From assembly GCA_019359315.1 (NCBI GenBank), contig JAHHHO010000036.1, positions 1 through 55,035 on the forward strand: 55,035 nt of DNA, in the 5' to 3' direction. The stretch comes from Myxacorys californica WJT36-NPBG1 (lineage in GTDB: Bacteria; Cyanobacteriota; Cyanobacteriia; Leptolyngbyales; Leptolyngbyaceae). This document shows positions 28,001 to 35,576 of the stretch, piece by piece (the stretch's first letter is position 1; every line of letters begins with the position of its first letter). Made by a program: the position numbers and the translations under genes. Below the pieces are notes generated by a model. It ran no database searches. It saw only the letters and a program-made list of their open reading frames with translations, and was not told the origin of the DNA.

Positions 28001-29263
28001 TTAGGAATTAGGATTAACAATTGATCCCATAAACAGAATTTCGCCTGTTTTGTTATCCCGAATTGCGCAGAAAAACGGTCGGTTAACAACCATTTCAAAC
28101 GGAGGGGTTTCAACCTGAACCGAAGTAACCGTTATTCCTACCGAGGTCACTGCTGCTGCTTCAGTTCCTTCTTCATTCACTTCTACAAATGTTTTATGTT
28201 TTACTTCATCAATGTTAGTTGTAGCATTGCTAAGGTTAGAGAAATTAGCCTTTGATCGGTCAAACGCAACTCCCATTCCTAATGCAGATAGCGCCTCTTT
28301 TAACTCAGTGTCGTAAGATAGCTTGAATCGTGGAATTTGAATTGATCCTTGGCGTTGACTAAACTGCTCCATCCAAGTTTGCCAATTCTTCTCGGTCAAC
28401 GTTTTATAGAATGTTGACAAGTTCGATTTTTCATTAGGCAAAAAGACATAAAGGCTCATTTGTTCGCTGCCGTAGGGTAAGCTAACCGCCTGAAACTGCT
28501 CGTTTTCGTAGTAGCGGTATTTGCCTTTTTGCTGCATCAACGGATGCTGCTTCTGCGTTCCATCTGCTAAGTAGAATGGACGGGTTTTGGTTTGCTTCTT
28601 ATCAAACTCGTCTGTCCACTTGCCTTTGAAATAAACGGCGTTGAGCAAAAACATGACTTGATCGGATCGGATCTGCTCAACAATCTGGCTAATTCTGCCG
28701 CGAGTACTTTCTTTAACCCAATTATTAATTTCGCCAGGGGCAGCCGCAGAATTAAAGTCTAACGTTTTAACGTTTGCATTGTAAAAAGTTTGATTGCGAT
28801 CGATAAATCCAGAATTAAACGAAACTCCCTCTCGTGCCCACAGCGAATTCGCGATCGCAATTTGCACACTCGGATCGGCATTCTCTAAACCAGTTTTCAA
28901 ATCTGCATTTGCCTGGTTCAATTCGCTTAAACTCAACCCTTGGATTTGCAGCGCTTTTGCCATTGCCTTCTGCGTTTCGCCGCTTGCGCCGTTATAGGTC
29001 ATCGACAGCGCGATCGCAACACTCGACGGCGACACAAACACATTGTCCTGACCGTCTTGCTTCAAAATTTCTGAAAATAACTTGAATCCAAATTGCGTAT
29101 TTGCCTTGACTAGTTTGGGGTTCACCTGCTGCGATTTCCTCTCCTGCTTTACGGTTGGAGGAGATGGCGTTGATTTTGCCGCATCCGAGCAGCCTAAAGA
29201 ACTCAATGCGACGATCGCTGCAATTAAAACAACCCCAACTCTTGGCAACATTCGCAATTCCAT
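28001..29263 (-). CDS. Serpin family serine protease inhibitor, probable lipoprotein
   Basis: The 420-residue protein has an N-terminal hydrophobic segment ending SSLGCSD (a plausible lipobox), a Pro/Ser linker, and a full serpin domain from about residue 55. The hinge EEGTEAAAVTS matches the inhibitory consensus, and FEMVVNRPFFCAIRD plus GEILFMGSIVNP are the family signature. Counting 17 residues from the hinge puts P1-P1' near Thr-Ser, but the loop is about five residues longer than in alpha-1-antitrypsin, so this is uncertain. ATG 29263 is preferred to a TTG at 29272. The gene directly upstream encodes a subtilase, a possible target. Confidence 0.93.
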   Translation of the reverse strand: MELRMLPRVGVVLIAAIVALSSLGCSDAAKSTPSPPTVKQERKSQQVNPKLVKANTQFGFKLFSEILKQDGQDNVFVSPSSVAIALSMTYNGASGETQKAMAKALQIQGLSLSELNQANADLKTGLENADPSVQIAIANSLWAREGVSFNSGFIDRNQTFYNANVKTLDFNSAAAPGEINNWVKESTRGRISQIVEQIRSDQVMFLLNAVYFKGKWTDEFDKKQTKTRPFYLADGTQKQHPLMQQKGKYRYYENEQFQAVSLPYGSEQMSLYVFLPNEKSNLSTFYKTLTEKNWQTWMEQFSQRQGSIQIPRFKLSYDTELKEALSALGMGVAFDRSKANFSNLSNATTNIDEVKHKTFVEVNEEGTEAAAVTSVGITVTSVQVETPPFEMVVNRPFFCAIRDNKTGEILFMGSIVNPNS

Positions 29264-29313
29264 ATCGTTCAACCTAGTTCTGCACGCTCTAAACTATTAA
29301 GCCCAAGAAAAAG

Positions 29314-29366
29314 TCGTAATCCGTAAAGATTGTGGTTTTCGCTACAAGCCGGATTACGGATTACGA
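29314..29366. other. 13-bp inverted repeat between subtilase and serpin genes
   Basis: TCGTAATCCGTAA (29314-29326) is the exact reverse complement of TTACGGATTACGA (29354-29366), with a 27-nt loop. It sits in the 204-bp gap between the subtilase stop and the serpin start. It lacks a clear T-run, so it may be a processing or attenuation hairpin. Confidence 0.45.
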
Positions 29367-29467
29367 ATGTTACTGACCTTTTCGTGTGCGGGCACCCTGT
29401 TAACTCACACTTTAACGTTGCCCTAGTTAAACCAAAGCAGTGGTTACAGTTTTTGAGACACTGGATT

Positions 29468-31144
29468 TTAAAACACTGGAACTGTCCACCATGCCAATCC
29501 ATAAGACTGGGTGGGCTGATTCACCTGTTGGCGAAAGACGACGCGAATTTTGTAACGCCCAGTTTGAGGAACTTGCTGAAAGATGTGTTCTACATTGTCG
29601 ATCGCGCTGACCGACGACCAGATGCTTCGTCTAGCGTCCGTATCTTCGGCTTTCATAAGATAAAGATCGAGATTATTGAGACCGCGATCGCGGAAATTCT
29701 CTCCCACGTCATACTCGCCATTTCGATTTTTATCGTTCAGTTCAACCCAGCGATCCCACGTCAATGTGGCTGACACGTAGCTTCCCTGCCGAAGCGGTTT
29801 TTCTAGCACATAGTCTTGATAATTTTGAGAGGACGCGCGTCCTGAAGGCGTTCCTAAGCCCACTTTGCCATAGTCCCACGCGATCGCCGGTACAGGCTGA
29901 GTTGGGTTCCATTTTCCTGCACTAAACTGCTGATAGGCCCGAAAGGCGTTCAGTTGCCCGGCTCCCATTTGAATATTCAGCGGGATTTTCGGATTCTTAT
30001 ACGCATCAGAATCCGTCCAGATCCGATTGTTTTTCTCCAAAATGGTTCGCGTCATTCCCAACATCAAGCCGTTGCCACTATCTTTAAGCTTGTCAGCAGA
30101 ATTCATCAGAACAGCTTTCATGACTTCATGGCGACGCGCATCAGTTGTCCAGGGAGCCTTGCAGCCAGCGCCCCGTTTGCAGCTTTGGCGGACGTTGCGA
30201 TCGCCAAATTCTTGCAGAAGCGCCACCGTTCCAGTAACATGCGGAGCCGCAAAGCTCGACCCAACTTGATTCAGTTCATCTCCTTTCAAACTAGCGACCG
30301 CAATTTTAGTTCCGGGAGCCGCCAGCGAGATCGAGCGGCGTCCTCCCAAACTTGTTTCAACTCCATCATTACGTTTAAGAATGCTAGGAGCAACATCACC
30401 GATATTGGAGAAATCAATTTTTGCAAACAGCTTTTCCAATCGGCGTGTAAATGAAATGGTCATGCCATTGTAATTGTCCGTTGGAATCGGAATTCCGCCC
30501 TTCCCTTGATTCCCCGCGACAACGTAAAGCACATCATGAACTCTCGCAGACCAATCCACACATTGCGTTAAAAGCGCATTTCCATCTAGTTTGGGATTGG
30601 GCCGTGGATCTTGTTGTAGAGCTTCTCCAAAGCTAAAGTTAATCGCCCGCACATCTCCTCCGTTCTGCATCGCCACATGCTCGGCGGAGCGACATTCTTC
30701 TGCTTGCCCGCCCCGTTGGGGAGTCGCTGCCGCCGAGGAATATAGTTTCGCGCTCGGAGCCACACCGCGCACCGCTTTACTATCTCCGATCATCACACTC
30801 GCTACTTGGGCTGCATGAGTATCGAGATTGGCATTCCCTTTTGCAGGTTGGTCGCGGTAGAAGGCTCGCGCCAACGCCACAACCCGATTCCGACTTGCTG
30901 CCTTATCGACGCCAAACTGCCCCGGACGCCCGATTTCAACTTGCCCGATCGCGATCTTTTGCCCAGTCAGTCGGTAGGGCGGAGACTGCAACTTCAACGC
31001 ATCAATGCCGTCTTGCCCGATCGATGAGTCTTGCACCAGCACGCTGTAAGCAGGAACTCCGCCCAACACAACGACTCCTACAATCCCAATTCCTAGCTGC
31101 CCAACTCCTAGCCGCCCAACTCCTAGCCAAAATCCTCTCACCAT
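29468..31144 (-). CDS. S8 family (subtilisin-like) serine peptidase, exported
   Basis: The 558-residue protein has a Gly/Leu/Val-rich signal segment (residues 3-30), followed by an S8 domain. The His motif is LDTHAAQVASVMIG, the oxyanion Asn is in YVVAGNQGKGG, and the nucleophile is in VGSSFAAPHVTGTVALL. Where the catalytic Asp is expected (D-[ST]-G) the sequence reads IAIGQVEIGRPG, so Glu may replace Asp. The C-terminal 110 residues form a beta-rich, pre-peptidase-like domain (SYVSATLTWDRWVEL...GRYKIRVVFRQ). ATG 31144 (MVRGFW) gives the best signal peptide. It is upstream of the serpin on the same strand. Confidence 0.92.
   Translation of the reverse strand: MVRGFWLGVGRLGVGQLGIGIVGVVVLGGVPAYSVLVQDSSIGQDGIDALKLQSPPYRLTGQKIAIGQVEIGRPGQFGVDKAASRNRVVALARAFYRDQPAKGNANLDTHAAQVASVMIGDSKAVRGVAPSAKLYSSAAATPQRGGQAEECRSAEHVAMQNGGDVRAINFSFGEALQQDPRPNPKLDGNALLTQCVDWSARVHDVLYVVAGNQGKGGIPIPTDNYNGMTISFTRRLEKLFAKIDFSNIGDVAPSILKRNDGVETSLGGRRSISLAAPGTKIAVASLKGDELNQVGSSFAAPHVTGTVALLQEFGDRNVRQSCKRGAGCKAPWTTDARRHEVMKAVLMNSADKLKDSGNGLMLGMTRTILEKNNRIWTDSDAYKNPKIPLNIQMGAGQLNAFRAYQQFSAGKWNPTQPVPAIAWDYGKVGLGTPSGRASSQNYQDYVLEKPLRQGSYVSATLTWDRWVELNDKNRNGEYDVGENFRDRGLNNLDLYLMKAEDTDARRSIWSSVSAIDNVEHIFQQVPQTGRYKIRVVFRQQVNQPTQSYGLAWWTVPVF
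31092..31136. repeat. 15-bp direct repeats in the subtilase signal-peptide region
   Basis: TCCTAGCTGCCCAAC and TCCTAGCCGCCCAAC follow each other and are continued by TCCTAGCC. On the coding strand they give GVGRLGVGQLGIG in the hydrophobic core. Slippage here would lengthen or shorten the signal peptide by five residues. Confidence 0.6.
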
Positions 31145-31323: not shown

Positions 31324-32028
31324 ATGACTCAATCGTCCAAGAAGCCGATTGTCGTTGCGCCATCGATTCTATCTGCTGATTTCAGTCGTTTAGGAGAAGA
31401 GATCCGGGCTGTCGATGCCGCCGGAGCAGATTGGATTCACGTTGATGTAATGGATGGTCGCTTTGTCCCCAACATTACGATCGGTCCCTTGATTGTGGAA
31501 GCGATTCGTCCGGTTACCCAAAAGCCGCTAGACGTTCACCTAATGATCGTTGAGCCAGAGAAATATGTTGGCGATTTTGCGAAAGCAGGCGCAGATCATA
31601 TCTATGTTCACGCTGAGCATAATGCCTCACCTCACCTGCACCGGACACTTGGACAAATTAAAGAGTACGGAAAAAAAGCGGGCGTTGTTCTCAATCCGGG
31701 TAGCCCGTTGGAATTGATCGACTACGTGCTTGAACTGTGCGACCTCGTGCTGATTATGAGCGTCAACCCAGGATTTGGAGGTCAAAGCTTTATTCCTGGT
31801 GTCCTGCCCAAGATCCGTAAGTTAAGACAGATGTGTGATGAGCGCGGTCTTGATCCGTGGATCGAAGTCGATGGTGGTTTGAAAGGGAATAACACTTGGC
31901 AAGTAATTGAAGCGGGAGCGAATGCGATCGTAGCGGGTTCCGCTGTATTCAATGCCCCGGATTATGCCACTGCGATCGAAGAAATCCGCAACAGCAAGCG
32001 TCCCGCACAAGAGTTAGCGGCGGTCTAA
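31324..32028 (+). CDS. rpe: Ribulose-phosphate 3-epimerase
   Basis: Rpe interconverts ribulose-5-phosphate and xylulose-5-phosphate in the Calvin and pentose phosphate cycles. The 234-residue TIM barrel has [16 protein letters not shown] at the start, the metal-binding [12 protein letters not shown] near 41 and [11 protein letters not shown] near 73. Further on are [12 protein letters not shown] near 141 and [10 protein letters not shown] near 180. AAGGGGA precedes the ATG, and a clear terminator follows at 32049-32081. It is monocistronic. Confidence 0.98.
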
Positions 32029-32103: not shown

Positions 32104-33494
32104 CCATTTGTGACAACTTAAGAGAAGCAAGCTTTTGTCAAGGGGGCGGGAGTGGTAGATTGGCGACATGGGAAAACGCGCCTACCGCAATCGAGACCAC
32201 ATCCGCCGCCGAAATTCAGCAGCGAGGCCGTGGAAGCGTATTTGCATGAGTTGTTGGGTCCAGCCGTTTACAGCCAACTGAATGCCTATCGACAGCTGGG
32301 ACTACGAGAGCGAATTCTGAGTTTGCCGCTGATGGTCGCGGCGGTATTGATGTTGCTGTGGCGACAAGTGCCCTCGGTGCATGAATTGACTCGGGTGTTA
32401 AACCGGAAGAACTTGCTATGGGCAACAGCAACCCAGGTGTCTCAGCAAGCGTTAGACAAACGCTTGTTAACGTTTCCAGCCATCTTGTTTGAGCAGGTGT
32501 TGATGCAATTGCTGTCGTTACTCAAGGAACGGTGGCAGGTTCGTCAACAGCGTCCCTTGCCTGCCAGTATTGCTTGGAGCCACAACCACTTCGGGCAGAT
32601 TGAGGTGGTCGATGGTTCTACCCTTGAAACGCTGTTTCGCAAGTTGGAGAGCCTGCAAGATGAGCCAGCTCGGTTAGCAGGCAAGCTTTACCCGTGGTGG
32701 ACTGAGTGACGCAGTTGCCCGTCAAGATCTGGCTAGAGGAGAAGCCCTTTCTCAACGACACGGTGGTCTGGAGCCATCTGTTGGCTCTGAGTCCACCGAG
32801 GACCCTCCTGATTTTAGACCGGGACTTTTACGACTTTGGGCAATTTGCGGCACTCGTCGAGCAGGGGGCGGCTTGGCTGACTCGACTGAAGCACAACGCC
32901 CGTTACCGAGTGCTCGAACCCCTCACCAGCACCCCTAACCTCAAAGACCAAATATCTGTTTGGGACATGGCAGAGGTAATAGTCCGACCTACACGGTGCG
33001 CTTAGTCGAGATCCCGCATGGCCACACGTGGTATCGCTACATTACCTCTGTGCTCTCGCCGCACCCGCTGCCGCCCTATGTTGTTGCCGATCTCTATGGA
33101 CGACGTTGGCAGATTGAAACCGCCTTTGGGTTGGTCAAACGGCTGTTGGGATTGTCTTACCTCTGGACCGGCTCGTTCAATGGCGTCAAACTCCAAGTGT
33201 GGGCCACCTGACTGTTCTATGCCGTCTTGCTGGATTTAGCCGATGCCCTCGCGGATGAATTGTCATTGCCCACAGAACAGATTTCAGTCGAGATGCTGTT
33301 TCGGGGCTTGTATCACTTCACGGTGGCTGCCAATTGCGGCAACGCCACTGACCCCATCCGCTATTTCACAGCACCCGAAAACACAGACTTGAGAATTGTC
33401 AAAACCGTGCCGGAAGCCAAGCAGAATCAGCGTTTAGACCTCTCACCTCATCCCACTTGACGGTCGCTCCTCAACTCTAAGTTGTCACAAATGG
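32104..33494 (+). mobile_element. Inactivated IS4-family insertion sequence
   Basis: The ends are imperfect inverted repeats: CCATTTGTGACAACTTAAGAG at the left, and at the right the reverse complement of CCATTTGTGACAACTTAGAG, giving a 1391-bp element. Inside is a single broken DDE transposase gene. No convincing target duplication is visible (at most the 2 bp AT if the repeats are trimmed), so a deletion may have followed insertion. The exact ends are uncertain by a few bases. The left end lies just past the rpe terminator; the right end abuts a heptad-coding repeat. Confidence 0.85.
32152..33460 (+). pseudogene. IS4-family transposase, disrupted by frameshifts and stops
   Basis: Pieces of one transposase appear in order. 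32152-32709 has the first Asp in IEVVDGSTLE. 32706-33005 has the second Asp in LLILDRDFYDFGQF. 32960-33211 has YGRRWQIETAFGLVKRLL, the Y-x2-R-x3-E-x6-K signature. 33227-33460 is the C-terminus. There is a frameshift near 32695 with a TGA in the restored frame at 32703-32705, a second frameshift near 32965-32990, and TGA at 33209-33211 where neighbouring residues suggest Trp. At least four lesions make it non-functional. Confidence 0.88.
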
Positions 33495-34320: not shown

Positions 34321-34632
34321 ATGCAAGCCATCGAAGCCATCGGAACGATCGACGCCCACGGACACCTATCATTGGATCAACCGCTACAAGTGAGTCATTC
34401 GGGTAAAGTGCGGGTCATTGTGTTGCTATCAGATAACGAGGGCACAACTTCTAATGGCAACGGAGTAGATCAAACCGAGAGTTCGCAGCAACTACCCAGT
34501 CTCCCACCCTTTCTACAGTTTGTTGAAGAAATCAGCGCCCAAGTTCCCAAAGAAGAATGGGAAAAATTACCCAGTGACCTTTCTAAAAACGTAGATCATT
34601 ACCTGTATGGCTCACCAAAGGACGAGGAATGA
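34321..34632 (+). CDS. Antitoxin of a VapC-type toxin-antitoxin pair
   Basis: The 103-residue protein begins MQAIEAIGTIDAHGHLSLDQ, followed by PLQV...KVRVIVLLSD. This small N-terminal domain is common in cyanobacterial antitoxins related to AbrB/Phd-like proteins. The middle is low complexity (SNGNGVDQTESSQQ), and the C-terminus is acidic and helical, suitable for wrapping a toxin. Its stop overlaps the toxin ATG by 4 bp (ATGA), as is usual for such pairs. Autoregulation is expected but no operator is obvious. Confidence 0.75.
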   Translation: MQAIEAIGTIDAHGHLSLDQPLQVSHSGKVRVIVLLSDNEGTTSNGNGVDQTESSQQLPSLPPFLQFVEEISAQVPKEEWEKLPSDLSKNVDHYLYGSPKDEE

Positions 34633-35039
34633 AAACCGTCTTTGCCGATGCGGGGTATTGGATTGCAATTCTTAACCCTGCGGATAACCTTCGTGCCAAA
34701 GCTGTCAGTCTTTCCAATGCTCTAGAACCTTTTCAAATCGTGACTAGTGAAATGATCTTCACCGAAGTCTTGAATTCGTTTTCCAGACGAGAGAGTGCGT
34801 TTAGACAAGCGGCGGCTCAATTCGTCAAGCGATCGTTCAACAATCCCAGAATCGAGATTGTTGCTCAAACCAGCGACTTATTTCATCAATCGCTCAATCT
34901 TTACGAACAAAGAGCCGACAAAGACTGGAGCCATACCGATTGTGCTTCGTTCTGCATCATGCAGCAGAAAAATATCCTCGAAGCCCTGAGTCATGATCGC
35001 CACTTTGAGCAAGCTGGCTTCGTTGCTCTACTCCGTTAG
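34629..35039 (+). CDS. PIN-domain ribonuclease toxin (VapC family)
   Basis: The 136-residue protein has the four acidic PIN positions: Asp in VFADAGYWIAIL (7), Glu in TSEMIFTEVLN (about 47), Asp in WSHTDCASF (about 101) and Asp in LSHDRHFEQAGF (about 121). VapC toxins cleave tRNA or rRNA; the target here is unknown. It is translationally coupled to the antitoxin and looks intact, in contrast to the two broken antitoxin-like genes just upstream. A 12-unit repeat array starts 6 bp after its stop. Confidence 0.85.
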   Translation: MKTVFADAGYWIAILNPADNLRAKAVSLSNALEPFQIVTSEMIFTEVLNSFSRRESAFRQAAAQFVKRSFNNPRIEIVAQTSDLFHQSLNLYEQRADKDWSHTDCASFCIMQQKNILEALSHDRHFEQAGFVALLR

Positions 35040-35044
35040 CAGAA

Positions 35045-35296
35045 GCATCGCCCTCCAATCCTCACCTTTCGCCCTCTGATCTCGGAACTCCGACCTCCGA
35101 ACCTGGAACTTCGGCTTCCGATCGCAAAACTCCGCCCCTTGAACCCGGAACTCCGCCTTCCGAACTCGGAGTTTTGCCCTCCGAACCTGGAACTTCGGCT
35201 TCCGAACCTCAAACTCCGAGATCAAAGCTTAAAACCTCGCCTTCCGAACCTGGAACTCCGCCTTCCGAACCCCAAACTCCGAGTTCAGATGCTCAC
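35045..35296 (+). repeat. Twelve-unit 21-bp tandem repeat (right array)
   Basis: The stretch divides exactly into twelve 21-bp units with consensus ACTCCGCCTTCCGAACCTGG(A). In one plus-strand frame they code TPPSEPG-type heptads (TPTSEPG, TSASDRK, TPPLEPG, TPPSELG, TSASEPQ, TSPSEPG, TPPSEPQ and others). That frame has no ATG with a ribosome site and continues to a stop at 35423-35425. Units differ by point changes but not by indels, so length has been preserved. The same unit occurs at 33508-33570. Confidence 0.85.
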
Positions 35297-35576
35297 TCCT
35301 GTAAACCTGTATCAAGACAGACTTGCGAAAAACGCGGTTCTCCAGTAGCCTTGTTCTTCAGTAACAACAAATATCCGGGATTAAAGCGTCACCTGAGACT
35401 GTTTGCACCAGCCCCAGGCGACTAACCCTCAAGACTGCGTACAACAGTCCGGAGGGCTAGAGGGCAGTTTATCACTCCACTAGCCACCCTGACTTGCTAT
35501 GGCAAAAAAGCGAGGGGGTGGCTTTGGTTTTGGGTATCGCTTCAACCCATCTCTTCTGTGGAGTGACACAACTGCT
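35297..35576. other. Intergenic stretch after the repeat array
   Basis: The repeat frame continues to about 35425 without recognisable domains. A GC-rich segment near 35446-35466 (TCCGGAGGGCTAGAGGGCAG) could fold. I see no further gene before 35577. Confidence 0.4.

Follow-up and report, generated by a model that had tools for sequence, protein, structure and literature searches.

A widespread neighbourhood of subtilase-fold and serpin genes in Cyanobacteriia and a miropin-like serpin that may guard the cell envelope

In Myxacorys californica WJT36-NPBG1 (Cyanobacteriota; Leptolyngbyaceae), a gene for a subtilase-fold protein is followed on the minus strand by a serpin gene, both lying in a stretch of 55,035 nucleotides (assembly GCA_019359315.1, contig JAHHHO010000036.1, positions 1 to 55,035) that we refer to as the window. 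The neighbourhood recurs widely across the class, and each gene is also found without the other. We favour the reading, at a probability of roughly 0.58, that the serpin is a broad-target guard of the cell envelope of the miropin type, and that the neighbouring subtilase is a possible target of this serpin and not its dedicated partner. As proposed, the serpin would be exported, inhibitory and, in most relatives, probably lipid-anchored; a target protease would cleave its reactive-centre loop near Thr380-Ser381, and insertion of the hinge in the main beta sheet would then leave the protease trapped as a dead acyl-enzyme. The serpin may in this way shield the envelope from several proteases, own and foreign, and the neighbourhood would mainly be an inherited block of rpe (ribulose-phosphate 3-epimerase), subtilase, serpin, a small membrane protein and an LCP protein, with the presence of the serpin varying from genome to genome.

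The serpin is a full-length member of its family, matching Pfam Serpin (PF00079) with 399.5 bits over profile positions 2-370 of 370, and is the sole serpin detected in its own genome (5.97 Mb); it matched no NCBIfam family. Its closest solved structure is that of miropin from Tannerella forsythia (5ncs; 267 bits, E 2e-78). A sequence-only reading of this DNA had proposed an inhibitory hinge, EEGTEAAAVTS, and this motif is present in the reactive-centre loop, with small residues, Gly at P15 and the EEGTEAAAVT of miropin, whose hinge reads EEGTEAAAVTA and whose loop is similar in length. Counting from the hinge, and not from cleavage data, places P15 at Gly366, P1 at Thr380 and P1' at Ser381. 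Miropin likewise has Thr at counted P1, while counted P2 is Lys in miropin and Val in the window serpin. The residues around counted P1 are small (I-T-V-T/S in the window, most commonly I-V-A-T/S in serpins adjacent to a subtilase), which suits elastase- and subtilisin-like proteases. Thr occupies counted P1 in 53 of 65 adjacent serpins, in 34 of 40 non-adjacent ones and in 16 of 21 from genomes without the subtilase (one gene stands twice among these 21, as L012 and L180), a similarity suggesting that the loop is independent of the neighbouring gene. As the genome holds seven Peptidase_S8 matches, the window subtilase included, and a single serpin, the neighbour is not the sole candidate target.

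Going by the title of Ksiazek 2015, miropin reportedly uses several bonds of its loop. Its likely function is given as preventing damage by secreted serine proteases (PMC4404884). Unlike the window serpin, miropin belongs to a host-associated pathogen. Subtilisin-like enzymes had been named as serpin targets in the sequence-only reading, and two papers report such inhibition for Clostridium thermocellum and Thermococcus (PMC6718151, PMC8233489); in the former (Clotm-serpin 1, PinA), a bacterial serpin is described as inhibiting subtilisin, with the organism's own subtilisin-like protease as a suggested target (PMC6718151). These systems differ from the window serpin in that two of the three C. 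thermocellum serpins are predicted to be cellulosomal and the Tk-serpin of Thermococcus kodakarensis comes from an archaeal hyperthermophile. Within the cyanobacteria, a serpin gene of Nodularia spumigena, which may or may not be an orthologue of the window gene, is reported as the top up-regulated gene at 0 g/L NaCl (PMC5853447).

A lipobox in the window serpin had been called possible: the signal peptide does carry a lipobox-like SSLGC, but this motif is noncanonical when set against [LVI][ASTVI][GAS]C, with Ser at position -3. This region reads SALGC in the sister species and VLGC in many Nostocaceae, and 47 of 67 adjacent serpins show a relaxed lipobox pattern ahead of the core, although the pattern may match upstream of the true start.

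The distribution of the two genes was followed in 388 genomes of the class, some of them incomplete drafts. Serpins, described in the sequence-only reading as rare in bacteria, are not so here, being present in 144 of the 388 genomes and in 41 of the 42 from the window's family; the subtilase has a match (threshold E 1e-20) in 240. Where both genes have coordinates, they lie within 5 kb of each other in 35 of 121 genomes (within 2 kb in 34), a lower bound since some pairs fall on short contigs. By family code, pairs were found in 15 of 38 genomes of f1, 2 of 18 of f13, 5 of 21 of f24, 3 of 3 of f25, 7 of 8 of f32 and the single genomes (1/1) of f27, f28 and f38, and no adjacent pair was found in ten other family codes (30 genomes, 15 of them f23). 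A second set, the best 80 of 388 confirmed named loci, which shares genomes with the 121, has the serpin directly downstream of the subtilase in 40 of the 72 loci that could be assessed; these span Leptolyngbyaceae to Nostocaceae, with Myxacorys, Phormidesmis, Leptolyngbya, Aphanothece, Trichocoleus, Oculatella, Hormoscilla, Tolypothrix, Scytonema, Brasilonema, Anabaena and Nostoc among the genera concerned. Of the 75 named loci that could be assessed for it, 71 have rpe upstream of the subtilase and divergent from it; in a set of 30 loci, rpe stands beside the subtilase in 27. The adjacency, with its single orientation and order, far exceeds chance, and its presence in 35 of 121 genomes and 40 of 72 loci means that a lack of conserved adjacency in relatives, named beforehand as grounds for abandoning the pair, does not apply. 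On a tree of 126 serpins, obtained by a quick search and with many weak branches, the adjacent state requires 12 changes against a shuffled mean of 42.4 and is spread across deep branches. The adjacency is widespread and probably old; an old adjacency with many losses is the simplest reading, although the counts alone do not separate gain from loss.

The sequence-only reading went on to infer a partnership, in which the serpin, if lipid-anchored, could protect the cell from its own exported protease or tune it. Spelled out as a dedicated pair, a subtilase that has no propeptide to keep it inactive would be held in check, whether periplasmic or on the outer membrane, by the lipid-anchored serpin encoded behind it. 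Conserved adjacency on a fixed strand, the exported appearance of both proteins, the inhibitory type of the hinge and the lack of a Pfam propeptide are all consistent with such a dedicated pair, and serpins that inhibit their own organism's subtilisins are reported elsewhere (PMC6718151, PMC8233489). The genes are separable, however, and we regard dedication as doubtful. No subtilase match accompanies the serpin in 21 of the 144 serpin-bearing genomes, one of which (G007, 99% complete) carries the serpin directly beside rpe (L028), and 117 of the 240 subtilase-bearing genomes, some of them incomplete drafts, have no serpin match, so that co-occurrence is not obligate as it would be in a dedicated pair. 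Among the 31 genomes searched that have a non-adjacent subtilase locus, 23 carry a serpin elsewhere. When the first ATG or GTG in the frame is taken as the start, gaps between adjacent genes range from 21 to 2133 bp, mostly too wide for a tight operon; in the window the gap is exactly 204 bp, as had been read from the sequence, and no terminator-like or sigma-70-like promoter site was called in it.

A neighbouring gene provides a control for the significance of the linkage. Past the serpin, many loci continue with the small membrane protein, which has no Pfam family, and the LCP protein (LytR_cpsA_psr, PF03816); when adjacent loci are compared with one another, both recur in 13 of 21 loci, drawn from 4 of 8 families, which makes rpe, subtilase and serpin part of a wider block, of which the window retains these three. 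In some loci (L061-L078, named loci) a gene for an AI-2E-type transporter (PF01594) sits in between on the opposite strand. Among 59 named loci whose downstream sequence extends for 6.5 kb or more, the subtilase is linked to the serpin in 31 and to LCP in 30 (both in 23, serpin only in 8, LCP only in 7, neither in 21); LCP genes past 7 kb are missed, so LCP retention is, if anything, understated. With this single bystander as the comparison, the adjacency of the serpin is kept no better than that of a bystander. Where LCP alone is linked, the small membrane protein stands 50-391 bp from the subtilase in four loci (L103, L104, L106 and L116), the transporter lies in between in two (L101 and L111), and the block begins 3.5 kb off in the last (L130). 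Four of these seven genomes have no detected serpin, an uncertain absence as all four are metagenome-assembled genomes, and the other three have serpins elsewhere. We dropped an earlier argument for an island, according to which only rpe, subtilase and serpin of the 42 window genes (weak response regulator and histidine kinase matches aside) occur in 20 distant regions, since the mutual comparison of loci shows the wider block and the 20 regions had been picked for adjacency.

Tests of co-evolution gave no excess signal either. In a mirror-tree analysis, the partial correlation of serpin and subtilase given rpe is 0.83 (63 adjacent loci; 0 of 2000 permutations), but after the rpe correction non-adjacent genes give 0.75 (12 genomes) against 0.77 for adjacent ones (13 genomes), and we therefore reject the mirror-tree result as evidence for co-evolution. 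Similarly, a basic residue at counted P1 or P2 occurs in 3 of 65 adjacent and 4 of 40 non-adjacent serpins and in 13 of 21 subtilase-less ones, and by genus in 3 of 25 compared with 7 of 11 (p 0.003; 7 of 12 and p 0.006 once g144 is included), genus g10 being scored as basic though only one of its two serpins is. The 21 rows are 23 minus L164 and L171, which gave no pattern match; L171, with Arg at counted P2, did enter the test of independent pairs, and L084, L085 and L178 gave no match. On independent pairs of the tree the signal vanishes (7 starred pairs, median p 1), and the idea that loop residues track the presence of the subtilase was given up once descent had been accounted for. Given the LCP linkage, the separability of the genes and the mirror-tree and loop controls, inherited synteny and function are about equally good explanations of the neighbourhood. 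The LCP control gives the partnership, which is unproven, no advantage over inherited synteny; what stands of that claim is the conserved adjacency.

Several observations weigh against our own reading of a broad-target serpin in an inherited block. Strand and order are identical in 35 of 35 pairs, with the subtilase first, across 8 family codes, and across the 388 genomes the two genes tend to occur together, with an odds ratio of 6.4 that is uncorrected for descent. In 8 of the 31 adjacent loci with a long flank, the pair stands with no LCP gene in reach. Lipid anchoring of the window serpin itself, to judge from SSLGC, is uncertain, and the lipobox region lacks a Cys in 6 of 67 adjacent serpins. 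A search of open-licence papers found no biochemical data on any cyanobacterial serpin.

The neighbouring protein had been called a secreted S8 peptidase, and its match to Peptidase_S8 (PF00082; 66.5 bits, cut-off 21.8) agrees with this call, although only profile positions 43-283 of 288 are covered and the canonical Asp motif is missing. In NCBIfam it matches a mycosin model at 34.5 bits, far under the cut-off of 278.75, and PADLOC gives a weak 36-bit match to a 'subtilase' model, leaves the serpin unmatched and shows no sign of a defence system. An AlphaFold2 model (mean predicted local distance difference test score, pLDDT, 74; predicted TM-score, pTM, 0.82) has its best Foldseek matches to KP-43 (1wmd, E 6e-21), SubHal (5fax, 2e-20) and Tk-SP. 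Like the window protein, KP-43 and SubHal combine a catalytic domain with a C-terminal beta domain; they share about 20% identity with the window family, which in contrast has Glu in place of Asp and no recognisable propeptide. No I9-type propeptide was matched by Pfam at E 0.001, and the conserved catalytic domain begins at about residue 46, with some 45 residues before it, signal peptide included.

The less expected feature of the locus is this Glu, which appears to mark a class-wide cyanobacterial subtilase family. At the place of the D-[ST]-G catalytic motif the family has E-I-G, or E-V-G in a few members. Glu70, His110, Asn212 and Ser297 are invariant in two alignments, of 18 and of 41 homologues, and in 129 of 129 homologous loci whose sequence reaches the site, Glu occurs where the catalytic Asp should be. 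These belong to a set of 130 loci (L031-L160; 117 distinct sequences), of which L087 ends before the Glu site; the Glu was read by pattern in 125 and from the printed stretch in 4 (L065, L111, L126, L129), and the same pattern script recovered His in 125, Asn in 125 and Ser in 122, the remainder being pattern misses that were not individually resolved. Glu70 was placed by motif, strand end and spacing, and not by residue-level superposition: in the model it is the last residue of strand 65-70, 40 residues ahead of His110, and D80, which is also invariant, is a weaker alternative as the catalytic acid. His110 and Ser297 are 187 residues apart, the same spacing as in the triad of KP-43, which we take to be Asp30-His68-Ser255; in L204, another S8 protein of the genome, Asp-His and His-Ser spacings are 43 and 176 residues. 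A sequence-only alignment of the Asp motif to the genome's own subtilases was discarded, as it misaligned the motif and recovered only 2 of the 6 others (L201, L204). Open-licence papers yielded no report of a Glu-for-Asp subtilase family or of this gene pair. One locus of the set, L157, is recorded as Candidatus Gracilibacteria (SU_1_2) but has a cyanobacterial-type subtilase and a genome of 6.0 Mb, so its title is probably wrong.

These substitutions raise the question of whether the subtilase is a protease at all. If the family were proteolytically dead and had another role, the serpin would act only on other proteases, and the two genes would be bystanders of each other. The universal Glu and shortened N-terminus, the HA that replaces HG at the His motif, and a weak Pfam match that leaves the Asp motif outside the matched part are in keeping with this possibility, which we nevertheless judge distinctly improbable: a dead enzyme would not usually keep His, Asn and Ser invariant, the acidic Glu could stand in for Asp, and the Foldseek matches are to active subtilases such as KP-43. 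A class-wide family of exported cyanobacterial subtilases with a Glu-His-Ser triad and without a propeptide might instead be restrained by the lipid-anchored serpin encoded beside them, which would act in trans as a propeptide substitute; we think this unlikely.

Against the reading that we prefer, of a serpin that acts on own and foreign proteases alike, it could be argued that there is no endogenous target and that the serpin is directed solely at foreign proteases, from grazers, lytic bacteria or hosts. The serpin persists where the subtilase is missing and is broadly distributed in cyanobacteria, and miropin is reported to inhibit host proteases (PMC8233489, PMC6718151). Purely defensive use seems very improbable to us, as it accounts for the long-standing link with a protease gene only through inherited synteny and most of the named producers are, judged by their names, free-living.

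Coordinates of the locus are collected in Table 1. Elsewhere among the sampled genomes, tandem serpin genes about 0.5 kb or less apart occur at L025 and in genomes G056, G134, G142, G190 and G310, one serpin is broken across two frames (G008, C3:25564-26657), and serpin remnants lie beside intact copies, either in pieces (G389) or with stops (G391). Within the window, three short open reading frames in differing frames beside rpe (32152-33211) together resemble a decayed transposase, the third being the only one with a Pfam match (DDE_Tnp_1). Two small overlapping frames at 34321-35039 look by eye like an antitoxin and a PIN-type toxin, with no Pfam match at E 0.001, and the short repeated peptide-like units in open frames of either strand at 35028-35425 probably reflect an intergenic repeat array.

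Table 1 Features of the subtilase-serpin locus, in window positions
Feature	Position	Strand	Basis or remark
rpe (ribulose-phosphate 3-epimerase)	31324..32028	+	Pfam PF00834, 296.7 bits; divergent from subtilase
Subtilase-fold protein, 558 aa, predicted exported	29468..31144	-	Pfam Peptidase_S8, AlphaFold2 model, KP-43 fold match
Subtilase parts: N-terminal hydrophobic stretch, catalytic domain, C-terminal beta domain	29468..31144	-	
Glu70 codon at the S8 catalytic Asp place, motif GQVEIGRP	30935..30937	-	motif, spacing, model
His110 codon (catalytic His)	30815..30817	-	invariant; starts helix 109-119
Asn212 codon (oxyanion-hole Asn)	30509..30511	-	invariant
Ser297 codon (nucleophile, GSSFAAPHV)	30254..30256	-	invariant; just ahead of helix 300-321
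Intergenic stretch between subtilase and serpin, 204 bp	29264..29467		contains imperfect inverted repeat
Imperfect 21-nt inverted repeat	29306-29326 and 29354-29374		two arms
Serpin coding sequence, 420 aa from ATG 29263	28001..29263	-	Pfam Serpin; best PDB relative miropin 5ncs
Serpin signal peptide with lipobox-like SSLGC	29189..29263	-	sequence; Cys25 at 29189-29191
Serpin reactive-centre loop, hinge to counted P1', EEGTEAAAVTSVGITVTS	28121..28174	-	sequence, miropin alignment

Secreted protease genes beside genes for their inhibitors are familiar from the staphopain-staphostatin and KLIKK protease-potempin systems, whose inhibitors are not serpins. Those are described as dedicated pairs, whereas the cyanobacterial subtilase and serpin often come apart. 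Few bacterial serpins have a known physiological target, and the old subtilase-serpin neighbourhood offers a concrete enzyme and a concrete inhibitor, in a group of which some members are transformable. If the subtilase family is active, the acid of its triad would be Glu throughout the family, where Asp is the rule.

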